Shown here: one piece after another, positions 3,248-8,586 of the stretch
Layout: each line of letters starts with the position of its first letter
Numbering within the stretch: the stretch's first letter is position 1
The notes under the pieces: generated by a model
The model's database searches: none
Seen by the model: the letters and a program-made list of their open reading frames with translations, nothing else
Told to the model about the DNA's origin: nothing
NCBI GenBank assembly: GCA_023250195.1
Contig: JAHFBF010000002.1
Coordinates: 124,001-188,000, forward strand
Direction: 5' to 3'
Length of the DNA: 64,000 bases
Source of the DNA: Candidatus Melainabacteria bacterium
GTDB lineage: Bacteria > Cyanobacteriota > Vampirovibrionia > 2-02-FULL-35-15
Program-made: the position numbers and the translations under genes

Positions 3248-5209
3248 TTATATACTTTTTGCTGGAAAAATTTCATCATAAAGTTGAGATATTAGATCAT
3301 TCGTTGATTTGTATCCATGTTTTTTAGCTAAACTTCTTACAGTATTTCTATTTAAATCCATCTCTCTTGCAACCAATATTTCTGAAGGCCGTTTTGTAGA
3401 ATCTATAATAAGTTTAACAATTTTTAACTTTAATAGTAAGATTTTGCTTAATGCTCTGTCGCTTCTCTCTATAGCTACATCTAATTCAAGTTTATATTTT
3501 CTATAAACAGAATTGGGTCCGGAATCTTTATTAGGAGGTGATTCTAAAAGCCCGGATGAAGGAAAAGTTATATGCTCGGCTTGAATCGGGCAACCATCTT
3601 TCACAGAAACACATGCTCTTGCTATTGTGTTTTCCAACTCTCTTATGTTTCCAGGCCAGTCATGTCCTATTAACTTTTGCATAGCTTCTTCTGAAATAGA
3701 TGGGATATTTTTACCAGGGCATATTTTAATAAGACATTTTTGAAGAAGCTCCGCAGCTAATCCCGGTATTCTCTCTTTGTGTTTTCTCAGTGGCGGAACC
3801 CTTACTGGAATCACATTTAATCGATGAAAAAGATCTTCTCTAAAACTACCATCTTTAACAGCTTTTTCTAAGTCACAGTTAGTGGCAGCCATTATTCTTA
3901 CATTTACTTTTTTAGGGAAGTTTGCACCTACAGGAGTTATTTCCCCTTCTTGAAGAACCCTTAGAAGCTTTACTTGAATATCCGGGCTCAACTCCCTAAC
4001 TTCATCTAAAAAGAGCGTACCGCCATCTGCGGTTTCAAAAAATCCTTTGTGTTGTTCACAGGCATTTGTAAAAGAACCCTCTTCATGACCAAATAACTGT
4101 GATTCTGCTAAATCTTTTTGTAAGGTAGCACAATTTACCACAACAAATGGTTTGTCTCTTCTCCTACTAAGCTGTTGAATCTGATTAGCAGTAACTTCTT
4201 TGCCAACGCCGGTTTCACCACAAATAATGATTGATGCATTACTAAGTGCAATATCTTCAATTCTTTCCAGTGCTTTAATCTCTGTTTCTGCAGTTGTAAT
4301 TGTTATATCATCCGGCTGTATTATGGGACTCTTTGCAAATATAATAGACCTTCTAACAATATTTTCAAGTTCACGGACATTTCCAGGCCATTCATACTTT
4401 CTTAGTTTTTCAACAGCTTCAGGTGAAAATCTATTTACTACTTTGTCAGGCACAAACATTTTGTGCTTCTCTAAAAAGTGTTCAGCAAGTTCAGGTATAT
4501 CTTCTGTTCTGTCTCTAAGAGGCGGCATATGAAGAGGAATTACATTTAATCTATAAAAAAGGTCTTTTCTAAATCGTTTCTCTTCAATAGCTTTTTTTAA
4601 ATTACAGTTAGTAGCTGCTATTACTCTGACATCTGTTTTAATATTTTCTGTACTGCCAACTCTTTGAAAAGAACCGTCTTCAAGAAATCTATTTAATTTG
4701 GCTTGTAAGGCTGGAGAAAGTTCTCCTATTTCATCTAAAAAAACAGTACCTTTATCAGCAGCTTCCAATAGTCCTATCCTTCTTTTAGTTGCACCGGTAT
4801 ATGCCCCTTTTTCATGACCAAATAATTCTGCTTCAATCATGTTTTCTGATATCGCTGCACAATTTACAGCGATAAAAGGCTGGTCACTTCTTCTGCTCTT
4901 TAGATGAATAGCTTTTGCTACAAGTTCTTTACCTGTTCCTGTCTCACCAGTAATAAATACTTTAGAATCCAAAGGTGCTACTTGTAAAATAATACTTCTA
5001 ACCCTTTGAATAGCTGGACTATCTCCAATAATGCCTAGGGTGGAATCAGGAAATAAATATAATTTTGTATCTGGTCGTGGTGTAAGCGGAATAGCTTTTA
5101 CAGAGTCCACAGGTTCAGGAAAAGGGGGCTTAACCTCTATAATCGGCTTTCTATCATAAGGAATTATTGGTAATGAACCTATATCATGTACAGGTGGAGA
5201 TCCAAGCAT
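3248..5209 (-). CDS. Protein with two tandem sigma-54-interaction AAA+ modules and a C-terminal HTH
   Basis: This 653-residue protein carries two complete bacterial-enhancer-binding-protein AAA+ modules in one chain. Module 1 (about 58-305) has Walker A GETGTGKE (88-95), the sigma-54 contact loop GAYTGA (135-140), Walker B GTVFLDE (154-160), an arginine-finger region [12 protein letters not shown] (213-224) and WPGNVREL (274-281). Module 2 (about 315-548) has GETGVGKE (331-338), a degenerate loop GSFTNA (378-383), GTLFLDE (397-403), [12 protein letters not shown] (456-467) and WPGNIREL (518-525). The C-terminus (about 585-640) has a Fis-like or HTH segment, [20 protein letters not shown]. No receiver, GAF or PAS sensor domain precedes module 1; the first 55 residues are Pro-rich. 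Family knowledge predicts ATP-driven remodelling of sigma-54 RNA polymerase. The degenerate second loop suggests that module 2 serves oligomerisation or regulation instead. No rpoN gene is visible here. Confidence 0.9.
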
Positions 5210-5261: not shown

Positions 5262-5290
5262 ATTATATCTGACCGGTTAAATAGATGCAA
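5262..5290 (-). promoter_or_regulatory. Candidate sigma-70 promoter of the double AAA+ gene
   Basis: On the minus strand TTGCAT (5290-5285) is followed after exactly 17 bases by a perfect TATAAT (5267-5262), inside and just past the end of the second methyltransferase gene. The predicted transcript start near 5255 gives a leader of about 45 bases. The AAA+ gene could therefore be expressed apart from the restriction operon upstream. The -35 match is weak (3/6). Confidence 0.45.
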
Positions 5291-6008
5291 CTTTTTCTTT
5301 TTTCAATCTTGCTTTGGCAAGCTTGATGTATTCAGGACTAATTTCAATTCCAATATAATCTCTTAATAATCTTTTGGAAATAACAGCAGAAGTCCCTGAC
5401 CCCATAAATGGGTCTAAAACCATGTCGCCTTTCCTGCTGCCAATTGAAATTATTCTTTCTAATAACTCTTCAGGTTTTTCTGTTGGATGCGGGGTTATAT
5501 GTCTCTTTGCATTCATTATCCAGAGGTTTCTCATTTGCTTGCCGTTATTAGTGGATTTAGCTAAATCATAATTAAAATAATATTTTTTATTTTTACTTGC
5601 TACCCAAATAAGTTCTGTAGAAGGAGCAAATCTATTTTTTGAAAGCAATGGAGTTGCATTTGGTTTAAACCATATTAAATCATTAATTATCCAAAAACCT
5701 AATTCTTTTAAAGTAACTCCAATGGATGGGTGATTATGCAATGTTCCTGATATCCAGATTGTCCCTGTAGGCTTAAGAACCCTTTTGCACTCTTTTAGCC
5801 ATGAAAAATTAAAGTTGTGTATGTTTTCAATTTTGTCCCACATCCCTTTATCACATTTTACAGGCTTTCCTGAATGTACAGTTAAAGAGTTATCTCCAGA
5901 TAAATTATATGGAGGATCAGCAAAAATCAAATCTATTGATTCTTGTTTTAACTTTTTCAAAGCTTTAATGCAGTCACCTTTTATGAGAGCTGTAGTTGCT
6001 TTTGACAT
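5277..6008 (-). CDS. DNA adenine/cytosine-N4 methyltransferase of a Type IIS-like R-M system (second)
   Basis: The 243-residue protein is a beta-class amino-methyltransferase. Motif IV DPPYNLSG (31-38) is N-terminal, the variable target region lies in the middle, and the SAM-binding motif I DPFMGSGTS (199-207) is C-terminal, followed by YIGIEISPEYIKLAKAR. DPPY is typical of N6-adenine methylation. It overlaps the end of the first methyltransferase gene by 28 bases and ends the R-M operon. It shares DPPYNLSG and a KQMR segment before the HPTxKP motif with its partner, which suggests an old duplication. Two separate enzymes are what an asymmetric recognition site needs, one for each strand. The exact sequence methylated cannot be read from the gene. 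Confidence 0.93.
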   Translation of the reverse strand: MSKATTALIKGDCIKALKKLKQESIDLIFADPPYNLSGDNSLTVHSGKPVKCDKGMWDKIENIHNFNFSWLKECKRVLKPTGTIWISGTLHNHPSIGVTLKELGFWIINDLIWFKPNATPLLSKNRFAPSTELIWVASKNKKYYFNYDLAKSTNNGKQMRNLWIMNAKRHITPHPTEKPEELLERIISIGSRKGDMVLDPFMGSGTSAVISKRLLRDYIGIEISPEYIKLAKARLKKEKVASI

Positions 6009-6790
6009 GATAATTCTTTGATCCTTTTTTTTGCAAGATGAACATACTCTTGATTTACTTCAATCCCAATCCATCTTCTGTTTAATTGTTCTGCAACAAC
6101 ACCAGTTGTACCAGTACCAAAAAAAGGGTCTAAGACCAACTCGCCTTTATTTGAAGATGCTTTTATTATTATTTCTAACAATTTCTCAGGTTTTTGTGTA
6201 GGGTGCGATGCTCTGCCATTTTGTGACTTTAATCTTTCTTTTCCCTGCACAATAGGAGTTTCAACAATATTTATAAAATCTCTCATTTGTTTACATTCCC
6301 CATCTTTTGTTTTTTCTGGATTCAATGATTTTAATTCATTGTAGTTATAAGTCCAGTTTTTCCCTTTTGTAAACCAACATACAAATTCTGTGGAATGTGT
6401 GAAAACTCTTTTAGTAATACTTGGCATGGAATTTGATTTATGCCAGGTTAATATATTTTTCAGAGACAGTCCTAACTTTTTACCTATAAAGGCTAATTCA
6501 CCCACATTATGATAAGTACAGGAAATATATAAACTGCCGGATTCTTTTAAAGCATTAAAACATTGAGTTAACCACAATTCAGAAAAATTAATATACTCAT
6601 CATAATCCCAGGTGTCCCAATCCTCATTCATTTTATAAAAAGCACCACCAGTAGTATTATTAATTAGATTTAGAGGTTTTCCTGATAAATTATATGGAGG
6701 GTCAGCATAAATTAAATCAATACTGCCCGGGTTTATGCTGGTATTCATTGTTTCAATGCAGTCACCAGTATAAATATAGTTACTTTTCAT
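5981..6790 (-). CDS. DNA methyltransferase of a Type IIS-like R-M system (first)
   Basis: The 269-residue protein is a beta-class amino-methyltransferase: motif IV DPPYNLSG (30-37), catalytic-domain segments, HPTQKPEKLLE (196-206), motif I DPFFGTGTTG (221-230) and WIGIEVNQEYVHLAKKR. It probably makes N6-methyladenine. Its ATG overlaps the TGA of the restriction endonuclease gene by four bases, so translation of the two is likely coupled. Its end overlaps the second methyltransferase by 28 bases. The nuclease being transcribed before both methyltransferases is notable, because control of relative protein levels would then have to act at translation or folding. No controller (C) protein gene is present nearby. 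Confidence 0.93.
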   Translation of the reverse strand: MKSNYIYTGDCIETMNTSINPGSIDLIYADPPYNLSGKPLNLINNTTGGAFYKMNEDWDTWDYDEYINFSELWLTQCFNALKESGSLYISCTYHNVGELAFIGKKLGLSLKNILTWHKSNSMPSITKRVFTHSTEFVCWFTKGKNWTYNYNELKSLNPEKTKDGECKQMRDFINIVETPIVQGKERLKSQNGRASHPTQKPEKLLEIIIKASSNKGELVLDPFFGTGTTGVVAEQLNRRWIGIEVNQEYVHLAKKRIKELSCQKQLQLS

Positions 6791-8586
6791 TTAATTATTT
6801 CCCCTTTCCATTCTTCAATAATATTATTAATATTTTCCAACCAGGCTATGCTTGAACTATTTGTAGCACCTTCTTCAACTATTAAGTCAAATAATGCCAT
6901 TAAATGTTTATGATTGAATTCTCTACCATCCTTGATAATTTTAGTATAAATATCTAGGATATTTATGAAATTCACTAGACTAAGTGGCACAATCTTCTGC
7001 TTCTTACCTTGAAAACCATGGTTTATTGAAACCCAAAAATATTCCACTGTATCATTATGTACTTTTGGTGCTACAAAAATACAATAAGCGGGCTTATTTG
7101 AATTTGCTGTTTCGAAATCTCTCAAATGGCGCATTATTGGCATGCTTTCTCTGTATACTTGCTGCCTGGATGAGTCTAATGTTACTTCTGAAATACAATT
7201 AAATGAATGATAAAAACATTCTATATCAGGTATATTGCCAGGGGCATGTCCTATAGGTTTACCGTCATCATCAAATAACAAATTAGGAGCTATCTTAATT
7301 TCATCATCAATAACTTGTAAGCATTTAGAGATAAGGAACTCAAATTCTTCCGGGTCAATTGCCCTGAATAGTTTTTTGTCTTTAAAAATGTTTAATATTT
7401 TATTTAATTCCAGAAGATTTTTTCTTAATGAGTAGTTGCTGGATAATTGAATTATTTCAAGTCTAAGAGCTCTTAGTTCTGAATTGATTTTTTCAAGCCT
7501 ATCTGAATCTAATGTTTCTATATCTGTTTTGGTAATTGATTTATACTTACCACTTATTTTTTCTTTTAATGTGCTTGTTAATTGATTAAAGTCACTGGTG
7601 ATTATATCTTTTAGTGAATAGGTGATTTCCTTAAGTTTTGATAAGTCCCTTTTCCATGGTAGTACGGGTTTATTTTCGTCTGAAATATAACTTAAGTATG
7701 AATCAATACTTGAAAATCTTTCTGCTGACCCATCATACAGAGTTAATAACTGAGCTATTTCATTTTTTCTGGTTGGTTCAGCAAGTATCCTCCAATCACC
7801 CATGGTACTTTTTTCTACTCTGAAGTATTTTGTCAAACGAAAATAACGCATTAAATTGTCACCATATTCAAATGGATTGTTTAATTGCTCATCATCTAAT
7901 TCAGCTACTTTGTAAAATTCCTTAAAAAAACTACATTCGAAAATGTCTTTATCTTCTACTGTTTTTAATTTTCTGAACTTAAAAATCAAATCGGCATATT
8001 TATCAATATCCTTAAAGTGAATTAAAGTAGGTATAAATATAGAAAATTCTGTTTGTGTCAAACTATCAACCTTACTCAGCAGGTGTAATAGTGCAGCAAA
8101 TGGGTTAATATTAAAACCTTTTTTTTCGGTAAATTCTCTTGTATCTAACGGATTAGGAAAATTCAATTTTAATATGCAATTAAAGAAAATATTACTAACA
8201 TCAGCATTCTCTTTGAGTAACATATTGCCAATAGGGGTAATTATAATTTTGTCTAATGATTCCTTAGCAATAGCAAATCCCAATTTGTTCAAAGGATTTG
8301 CACTTTGCCTTCCTCTTATAGATGAACCTACATAGTCTTGATAATGGAAAGTTTTTTCCGCAACTTCATATGGAATTTCTTTAGTTGCATCATTAAATAT
8401 AGAAAAGTATTCTTCTGGTATATTGCTTGGCTTGTAAAGTCTTTCTTGTATTAATAATATTTGATACTTGATTTGATTGTCTTTGGAAAAACTCTGGCCT
8501 TCTAACTGTTTTAAGACTTTTAAAAAATCTGGCAACCTTTCTGGATTACGCACTGTTGTTGATATTGATAATAATATTTTTTTCAT
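6787..8586 (-). CDS. AlwI/Nt.BstNBI-family Type IIS restriction endonuclease
   Basis: The protein is 599 residues from the ATG at 8586 (604 from an in-frame TTG at 8601). The N-terminus KKILLSISTTVRNPERLPDF matches the opening of AlwI-type nucleases. Near the C-terminus GHAPGNIPD is followed by SEVTL, corresponding to THAAGNQPD and GEVTT as I remember them in Nt.BstNBI/BspD6I. Counting from the ATG, Glu416, Asp454, Glu467 and Glu480 have spacings of 38, 13 and 13. These equal the spacings of the four acidic active-site residues I recall for that nickase (418, 456, 469, 482). The family binds an asymmetric 5-bp site (GGATC or GAGTC in known members) with its N-terminal part and cuts a few bases away. 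No separate small catalytic subunit lies nearby, so a homodimeric cutter like AlwI is more likely than a nickase, but this is inference. Confidence 0.88.
   Translation of the reverse strand: MKKILLSISTTVRNPERLPDFLKVLKQLEGQSFSKDNQIKYQILLIQERLYKPSNIPEEYFSIFNDATKEIPYEVAEKTFHYQDYVGSSIRGRQSANPLNKLGFAIAKESLDKIIITPIGNMLLKENADVSNIFFNCILKLNFPNPLDTREFTEKKGFNINPFAALLHLLSKVDSLTQTEFSIFIPTLIHFKDIDKYADLIFKFRKLKTVEDKDIFECSFFKEFYKVAELDDEQLNNPFEYGDNLMRYFRLTKYFRVEKSTMGDWRILAEPTRKNEIAQLLTLYDGSAERFSSIDSYLSYISDENKPVLPWKRDLSKLKEITYSLKDIITSDFNQLTSTLKEKISGKYKSITKTDIETLDSDRLEKINSELRALRLEIIQLSSNYSLRKNLLELNKILNIFKDKKLFRAIDPEEFEFLISKCLQVIDDEIKIAPNLLFDDDGKPIGHAPGNIPDIECFYHSFNCISEVTLDSSRQQVYRESMPIMRHLRDFETANSNKPAYCIFVAPKVHNDTVEYFWVSINHGFQGKKQKIVPLSLVNFINILDIYTKIIKDGREFNHKHLMALFDLIVEEGATNSSSIAWLENINNIIEEWKGEIIK

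Follow-up and report, generated by a model that had tools for sequence, protein, structure and literature searches.

Which restriction-modification (R-M) system is encoded by the three overlapping genes on the minus strand at positions 5277-8586 of this 64,000-nucleotide stretch of Candidatus Melainabacteria DNA (the whole stretch analysed, hereafter the window), and which DNA site would it recognise? The locus comprises a nuclease of the RE_AlwI family and two beta-class adenine methyltransferases, M1 and M2 (Table 1). A complete R-M operon with a nuclease of the AlwI/Nt.BstNBI family had been proposed in the original prediction, and this was confirmed by Pfam, PADLOC, a PDB sequence search and a fold search. 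On the sequence and model evidence described below, the operon would encode a complete Type IIS R-M system of the AlwI family, with a probability of about 0.9, a figure that covers the system and not its target. Judged by its reading frames and motifs, the R-M operon is real, complete and intact, and its kind is an ordinary one, from a known family.

The nuclease was assigned as follows. The Pfam profile RE_AlwI (PF09491) matched residues 101-543 over profile positions 2-441 of 441 with an expectation value (E) of 1.7e-69 and 235.4 bits (cut-off 23.1), so that the profile search named beforehand as a possible refutation of AlwI/BstNBI similarity gave a strong match. The PDB sequence search returned Nt.BspD6I at 5.4e-28 (identity approximately 21-24%), N.BspD6I and the small subunit of R.BspD6I being the sole solved relatives. 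The four acidic residues that had been predicted with spacings of 38, 13 and 13 (Table 1) were invariant in two alignments, one of them of ten diverse RE_AlwI proteins including Nt.BspD6I, and the E418A and D456A variants of BspD6I are catalytically deficient (PMC6261011; PDB entries 6qnz and 5lhc). The predicted GHAPGNIPD motif is likewise present, and homologues vary around A-P-G/A-N-x-P-D at this place. An AlphaFold model of the nuclease, built with eight natural homologues, had a predicted local distance difference test score (pLDDT) of 79.5 and a predicted template modelling score (pTM) of 0.58. When this model was submitted to Foldseek, the top eight matches were all Nt.BspD6I (E 5.6e-24 to 1.9e-22, approximately 630 columns, TM 0.55-0.58), followed by the BspD6I small subunit (2p14) on the C-terminal domain (TMt 0.82). 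The predicted fold thus resembles BspD6I along the whole length, that is, in the recognition part, the linker and the catalytic domain. Taken together, the Pfam score, the invariant catalytic acids and the whole-length fold match place the predicted protein in the RE_AlwI family.

Placement within the family was determined with PADLOC and a nuclease tree. The window nuclease scored 335 bits against PDLC03393 versus 99 bits against PDLC03394, the group of BspD6I (1202 bits for a BspD6I fragment); PDLC03463 holds the AlwI-type plasmid enzymes of Acinetobacter, Geobacillus and Priestia, and PDLC03507 the Helicobacter/Staphylococcus/Apilactobacillus group. A founder enzyme of PDLC03393 was sought via plasmid homologues, and the Acinetobacter, Staphylococcus and Helicobacter copies fell in other groups. 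In a tree of 47 nucleases, in which the wider placement of BspD6I is uncertain owing to its long branch, the window nuclease paired with that of a Spirochaetes metagenome-assembled genome (L026; support 100/100) within a 36-member branch apart from BspD6I. The Spirochaetes locus is the nearest relative found and carries the same three-gene operon (identity 55% for the nuclease and 64% each for M1 and M2), and an operon of the same make-up is present in L057. Related loci were scanned for with a profile from four closer nucleases; the top PDLC03393 score among them (765 bits) belonged to L058, in which the methyltransferase gene lies in the opposite orientation. The window genome falls in a class to which Gastranaerophilales/Melainabacteria belong, the nuclease of a class-mate (G024) being identical to that of a Candidatus Melainabacteria contig (L044). 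The original family naming therefore stands as far as an AlwI/BstNBI-type nuclease is concerned, but not for the BspD6I/BstNBI branch. Like the large subunit of R.BspD6I (Nt.BspD6I/BstNBI, GAGTC), the enzyme shows the RE_AlwI domain, the whole-length fold and the equally spaced acids; unlike it, the enzyme belongs to another PADLOC group and tree branch and is accompanied by two beta-class methyltransferases in place of a small subunit. With neither a small-subunit gene in the 98.9% complete genome nor the shared sequence group, the nuclease is not a member of the BstNBI/BspD6I heterodimer (Type IIT) subfamily.

Both methyltransferases matched Pfam N6_N4_Mtase (3.9e-59 for M1, 1.9e-58 for M2). 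The order of the motifs is that of the beta class, with DPPY (as DPPYNLSG; not SPPY) towards the N-terminal end and DPFFGTG/DPFMGSG towards the C-terminal end, and the FxGxG motifs are intact in both proteins. The earlier description of two beta-class enzymes with overlaps of 4 and 28 bases agrees with this motif order and with the coordinates; the overlaps are exact, the first being ATGA. M2 shares approximately 47-48% identity with the DpnA-type enzyme that is the second methyltransferase in the R-M operon of Lactococcus plasmid pSRQ700 (LlaDCHI, a DpnII-like GATC system). By sequence, CcrM (GANTC) and the DpnA/LlaDCHI-type second methyltransferase (GATC) are the nearest characterised relatives of M1 and M2, but these enzymes act on palindromes; moreover, CcrM is an orphan with a C-terminal extension that M1 and M2 do not carry, and the DpnA type pairs with a different nuclease. 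M1 of the window and of eight related loci formed one clade (nine loci), and the M2 proteins from four loci formed a separate clade with support of 100/100. Because each forms its own clade across related loci, M1 and M2 are, as these trees indicate, old and distinct lineages and not the result of a recent duplication.

The methyltransferases that accompany the nuclease fell into three pairings. M1 with M2 (beta+beta) was found in four loci (the window, L026, L057 and L035), M1 with an alpha-class enzyme, D12' (beta+alpha), in six (L027, L028, L029, L031, L032 and L043, the last with M1 incomplete at the contig end), and D12' with D12 (alpha+alpha), separate or fused, in approximately 21 other related loci. 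Neither M1 with D12 nor M2 with D12' occurred in any of the related loci examined; the mutual exclusivity of M1 and D12, and of M2 and D12', is thus a computed result. Given that both strands need protection and that orthologues keep their site, the exclusive pairings point to strand-specific replacement at a conserved target: M1 and D12 would act on the same strand, M2 and D12' on the opposite one, and the target would be common to the whole branch. Three pairings of unrelated methyltransferases with the same nuclease lineage also suggest that the target differs from the one first assumed. It is an evenly balanced proposition that one Type IIS lineage has kept its target while its methyltransferases were swapped singly from beta to alpha class, the window representing the beta/beta end with GCATC/GATGC, not GAGTC, as the target.

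Two unusual arrangements were seen among these loci. D12' is fused behind a RadC-like protein (UPF0758_N + RadC JAB) at L028:941-2743, L032:3194-4996 and L043:3176-4981, as recognised by Pfam in L028, from the sequence in L043, and by equal length and domain position in L032. The D12'+D12+nuclease operon of L048, complete in other respects, is followed at L048:5701-6885 by a third methyltransferase of 394 aa, a DpnA-like beta-class enzyme.

The recognition site is most probably GAT-cored, which would fit the kinship to Dam of the alpha-class D12 enzymes found in place of M1 and M2. A published parallel is the Caldicellulosiruptor system R.Cal02329/CsaDORF2754P, in which an AlwI-family nuclease and two separate adenine methyltransferases form one operon (accessions consecutive in the order R-M1-M2, as in the window): GCATC/GATGC is methylated, although REBASE had predicted GASTC, the guess to be expected for CcrM-like methyltransferases, and the host DNA was cut by PleI (GAGTC; PMC9799307). 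The methyltransferase of an AlwI-family system of Staphylococcus xylosus, when expressed in Escherichia coli, likewise led to GATGC/GCATC methylation (PMC10030836). Because these two published systems use GCATC/GATGC, which also fits the methyltransferase evidence better, this target is preferred over GGATC and GAGTC; by analogy it is favoured, if unproven, with roughly even odds. GGATC and GAGTC, given in the original prediction as the family sites, are indeed known sites but too narrow a choice in view of these GCATC/GATGC systems; its decision to leave the specificity open was right.

Further systems bear on this comparison. In MhoVII of Mycoplasma hominis (GATG/CATC), a beta-class M1 methylates GATG and a D12-class M2 methylates CATC, so that a beta-class enzyme for one strand is again joined by an adenine enzyme for the other; the MhoVII nuclease, however, clusters apart from AlwI-family enzymes, and its M1 and M2 are fused (PMC12898733). 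In M. agalactiae, the methyltransferase to which GATGC was assigned shares 96% identity with MBOVPG45_0722 of M. bovis (PMC9465063), and an RE_AlwI nuclease of M. meleagridis, 49% identical to one in M. bovis PG45, lies in the opposite orientation to a methyltransferase gene (PMC4807054), an arrangement shared with L058. AlwI itself (GGATC) and its Acinetobacter, Geobacillus and Priestia plasmid homologues also combine an RE_AlwI nuclease with two methyltransferase activities, but there the nuclease is preceded by two alpha-class D12 enzymes in fused form.

Several points weigh against GCATC/GATGC. The kinship of the window operon to the Caldicellulosiruptor and S. xylosus systems was judged only from gene order, size and the descriptions in the papers. 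The count of candidate sites that had been suggested as a check was performed on 864 kb of the genome (sampled stretches plus the window), with two same-genus genomes without the system for comparison, and no candidate was uniquely depleted: observed/expected ratios were 0.91 for GCATC, 0.97 for GAGTC and 1.01 for GGATC, none being distinctly avoided, and the relatives without the system showed comparable scatter. Site counts in 31 R-M operons versus their flanks also singled out no candidate. Two apparent clues were discarded, namely a low count of GGATG, which is equally low in a relative without the system, and an excess of GGATC in the operons, which probably reflects codons for a conserved Asp-Pro. 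Finally, CcrM (GANTC) was the top hit of both methyltransferases among solved structures (8.9e-48 for M1, 2.8e-56 for M2), which would suit GAGTC. In the same counts, GGCC was strongly under-represented (observed/expected 0.41 in the window genome and in the same-genus genome G002, 0.65 in G001), with CTAG next; the shortage of GGCC might stem from restriction directed at GGCC in the genus, whether past or current.

GAGTC/GACTC, the target of BstNBI, PleI and MlyI, is the second candidate, for a system of the same kind in which M1 and M2 would be CcrM/HinfI-like enzymes each narrowed to one strand. Besides the CcrM match, M1 retains the CcrM-like stretches QMR...GKERL and HPTQKPE, and BspD6I, the solved nuclease homologue, cuts at GAGTC; MlyI, on the other hand, is described as requiring a single GASTC methyltransferase (PMC4081073), and for Caldicellulosiruptor the GASTC guess gave way to GCATC in the experiment. 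The window nuclease lies on a branch apart from BspD6I, and on this branch Dam-related D12 enzymes take the places of M1 and M2. We know of no D12 enzyme for GASTC, which also counts against GAGTC. This target is thus considered unlikely, and the remaining probability falls to GGATC, GGATG, CCATC or other sites.

Whether the nuclease cuts both strands was judged from the gene content. Nt.BspD6I, the closest homologue with a solved structure, is a nickase when by itself and requires a small subunit of 186 aa to cut the second strand (PMC4081073), and PADLOC gives the group of the window nuclease the label 'Type II nicking endonuclease'; both facts would suit a strand-specific nickase, working either unaided or with a small subunit that is lost or encoded at a distance. 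As in the original prediction, however, no second subunit was seen: the window and the genome (98.9% complete) contained neither a small subunit nor a second RE_AlwI protein. A search of the genome with the catalytic domain gave a single match (E 0.07), which lies antisense in trpC and was rejected as chance. Intact related loci have no RE_AlwI half-gene beside the nuclease, and AlwI has been described as having to dimerize for double-strand cleavage (PMC12898733). Because the genome encodes no small subunit, a homodimeric Type IIS cutter is likelier, and a nickase is regarded as improbable. Decay does occur in the family, with truncated or split nuclease genes at L010:4258-5046, L021:1492-2256 (truncated) and L056:4992-6799 (split), one of the three being a truncated copy beside IS257 on a Macrococcoides plasmid. 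In the window operon, however, all three frames are full length, the catalytic motifs are conserved and the starts overlap, so that it is very improbable that the operon has decayed or become inactive and is retained for its methyltransferases only.

For the homodimeric Type IIS cutter, the following mode of action is proposed. The N-terminal part of the nuclease would read a short asymmetric site, and the C-terminal PD-(D/E)XK-like domain would cut a few bases to one side; both strands would presumably be cut by a homodimer, possibly a transient one, in the manner described for enzymes of the AlwI type. M1 and M2 would each methylate an adenine, M1 on one strand of the site and M2 on the opposite strand, and would thereby protect the host, a strand assignment that we infer from the exclusive replacement pattern. 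The overlaps between the genes may keep the three products together.

Table 1. Coordinates of the R-M genes, the catalytic residues and the neighbouring genes in the window.
Feature	Position	Strand	Description
Nuclease (P0001)	6787..8586	-	599 aa from ATG; N-terminal DNA-recognition region, linker, C-terminal PD-(D/E)XK-like catalytic domain (predicted, approximately residues 410-599)
M1 (P0002), beta-class N6-adenine DNA methyltransferase	5981..6790	-	269 aa; start overlaps nuclease stop by 4 bases
M2 (P0003), beta-class N6-adenine DNA methyltransferase	5277..6008	-	243 aa; overlaps M1 by 28 bases
Catalytic acids E416, D454, E467, E480 of nuclease	7147..7341	-	spacings 38-13-13; aligned with BspD6I E418, D456, E469, E482
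Sigma-54 activator-like protein	3248..5209	-	flank on the same strand
Methylmalonate-semialdehyde-type dehydrogenase and hydantoinase-like gene	from 8749	+	flank on the opposite strand; named by reading translations

An alternative TTG start would extend the nuclease to an open reading frame reaching 8601. On both sides, the neighbours of the operon are ordinary chromosomal genes. The dehydrogenase-hydantoinase pair is kept in four relatives, in none of which a nuclease homologue was found within 1.5 kb beside it, and no RE_AlwI gene was found in the two same-genus and eight other same-family genomes searched; because of these two observations, the operon is best read as an accessory insertion. 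A phage origin was considered and rejected, the viral contigs and phage records giving no close relative, one weak match and a distant Erysipelothrix phage copy of another subgroup. In the sigma-54 activator-like protein, Pfam recognised the sigma-54 interaction AAA+ domain in two stretches arranged in tandem. The GAYTGA loop is kept in the first unit and reads GSFTNA in the second, which suggests that one of the two may have degenerated; G002 and G004 carry orthologues of about the same length. Further N6_N4 methyltransferase genes are located elsewhere in the genome (C2:111356-112366, C4:66037-66708, C2:63462-64259 and C5:17101-17694), and a methylome would therefore carry additional N6-methyladenine or N4-methylcytosine motifs besides those of M1 and M2.

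With this operon, the AlwI-family Type IIS systems gain an intact example from a Melainabacteria-like genome. It also indicates that methyltransferase class by itself is not a sufficient guide to the recognition site: from CcrM-like companions a GANTC-type site would be expected, whereas comparable AlwI-family systems have been shown to use GCATC/GATGC. What may carry over to other systems is that strand-specific methyltransferases of unrelated class appear to have been exchanged one at a time around a single nuclease lineage. If this replacement by strand is true, the related loci would offer a natural experiment on the exchange of strand-specific methyltransferases without death of the host; they would also yield a rule by which strands and sites could be assigned to AlwI-family systems that are still uncharacterised.

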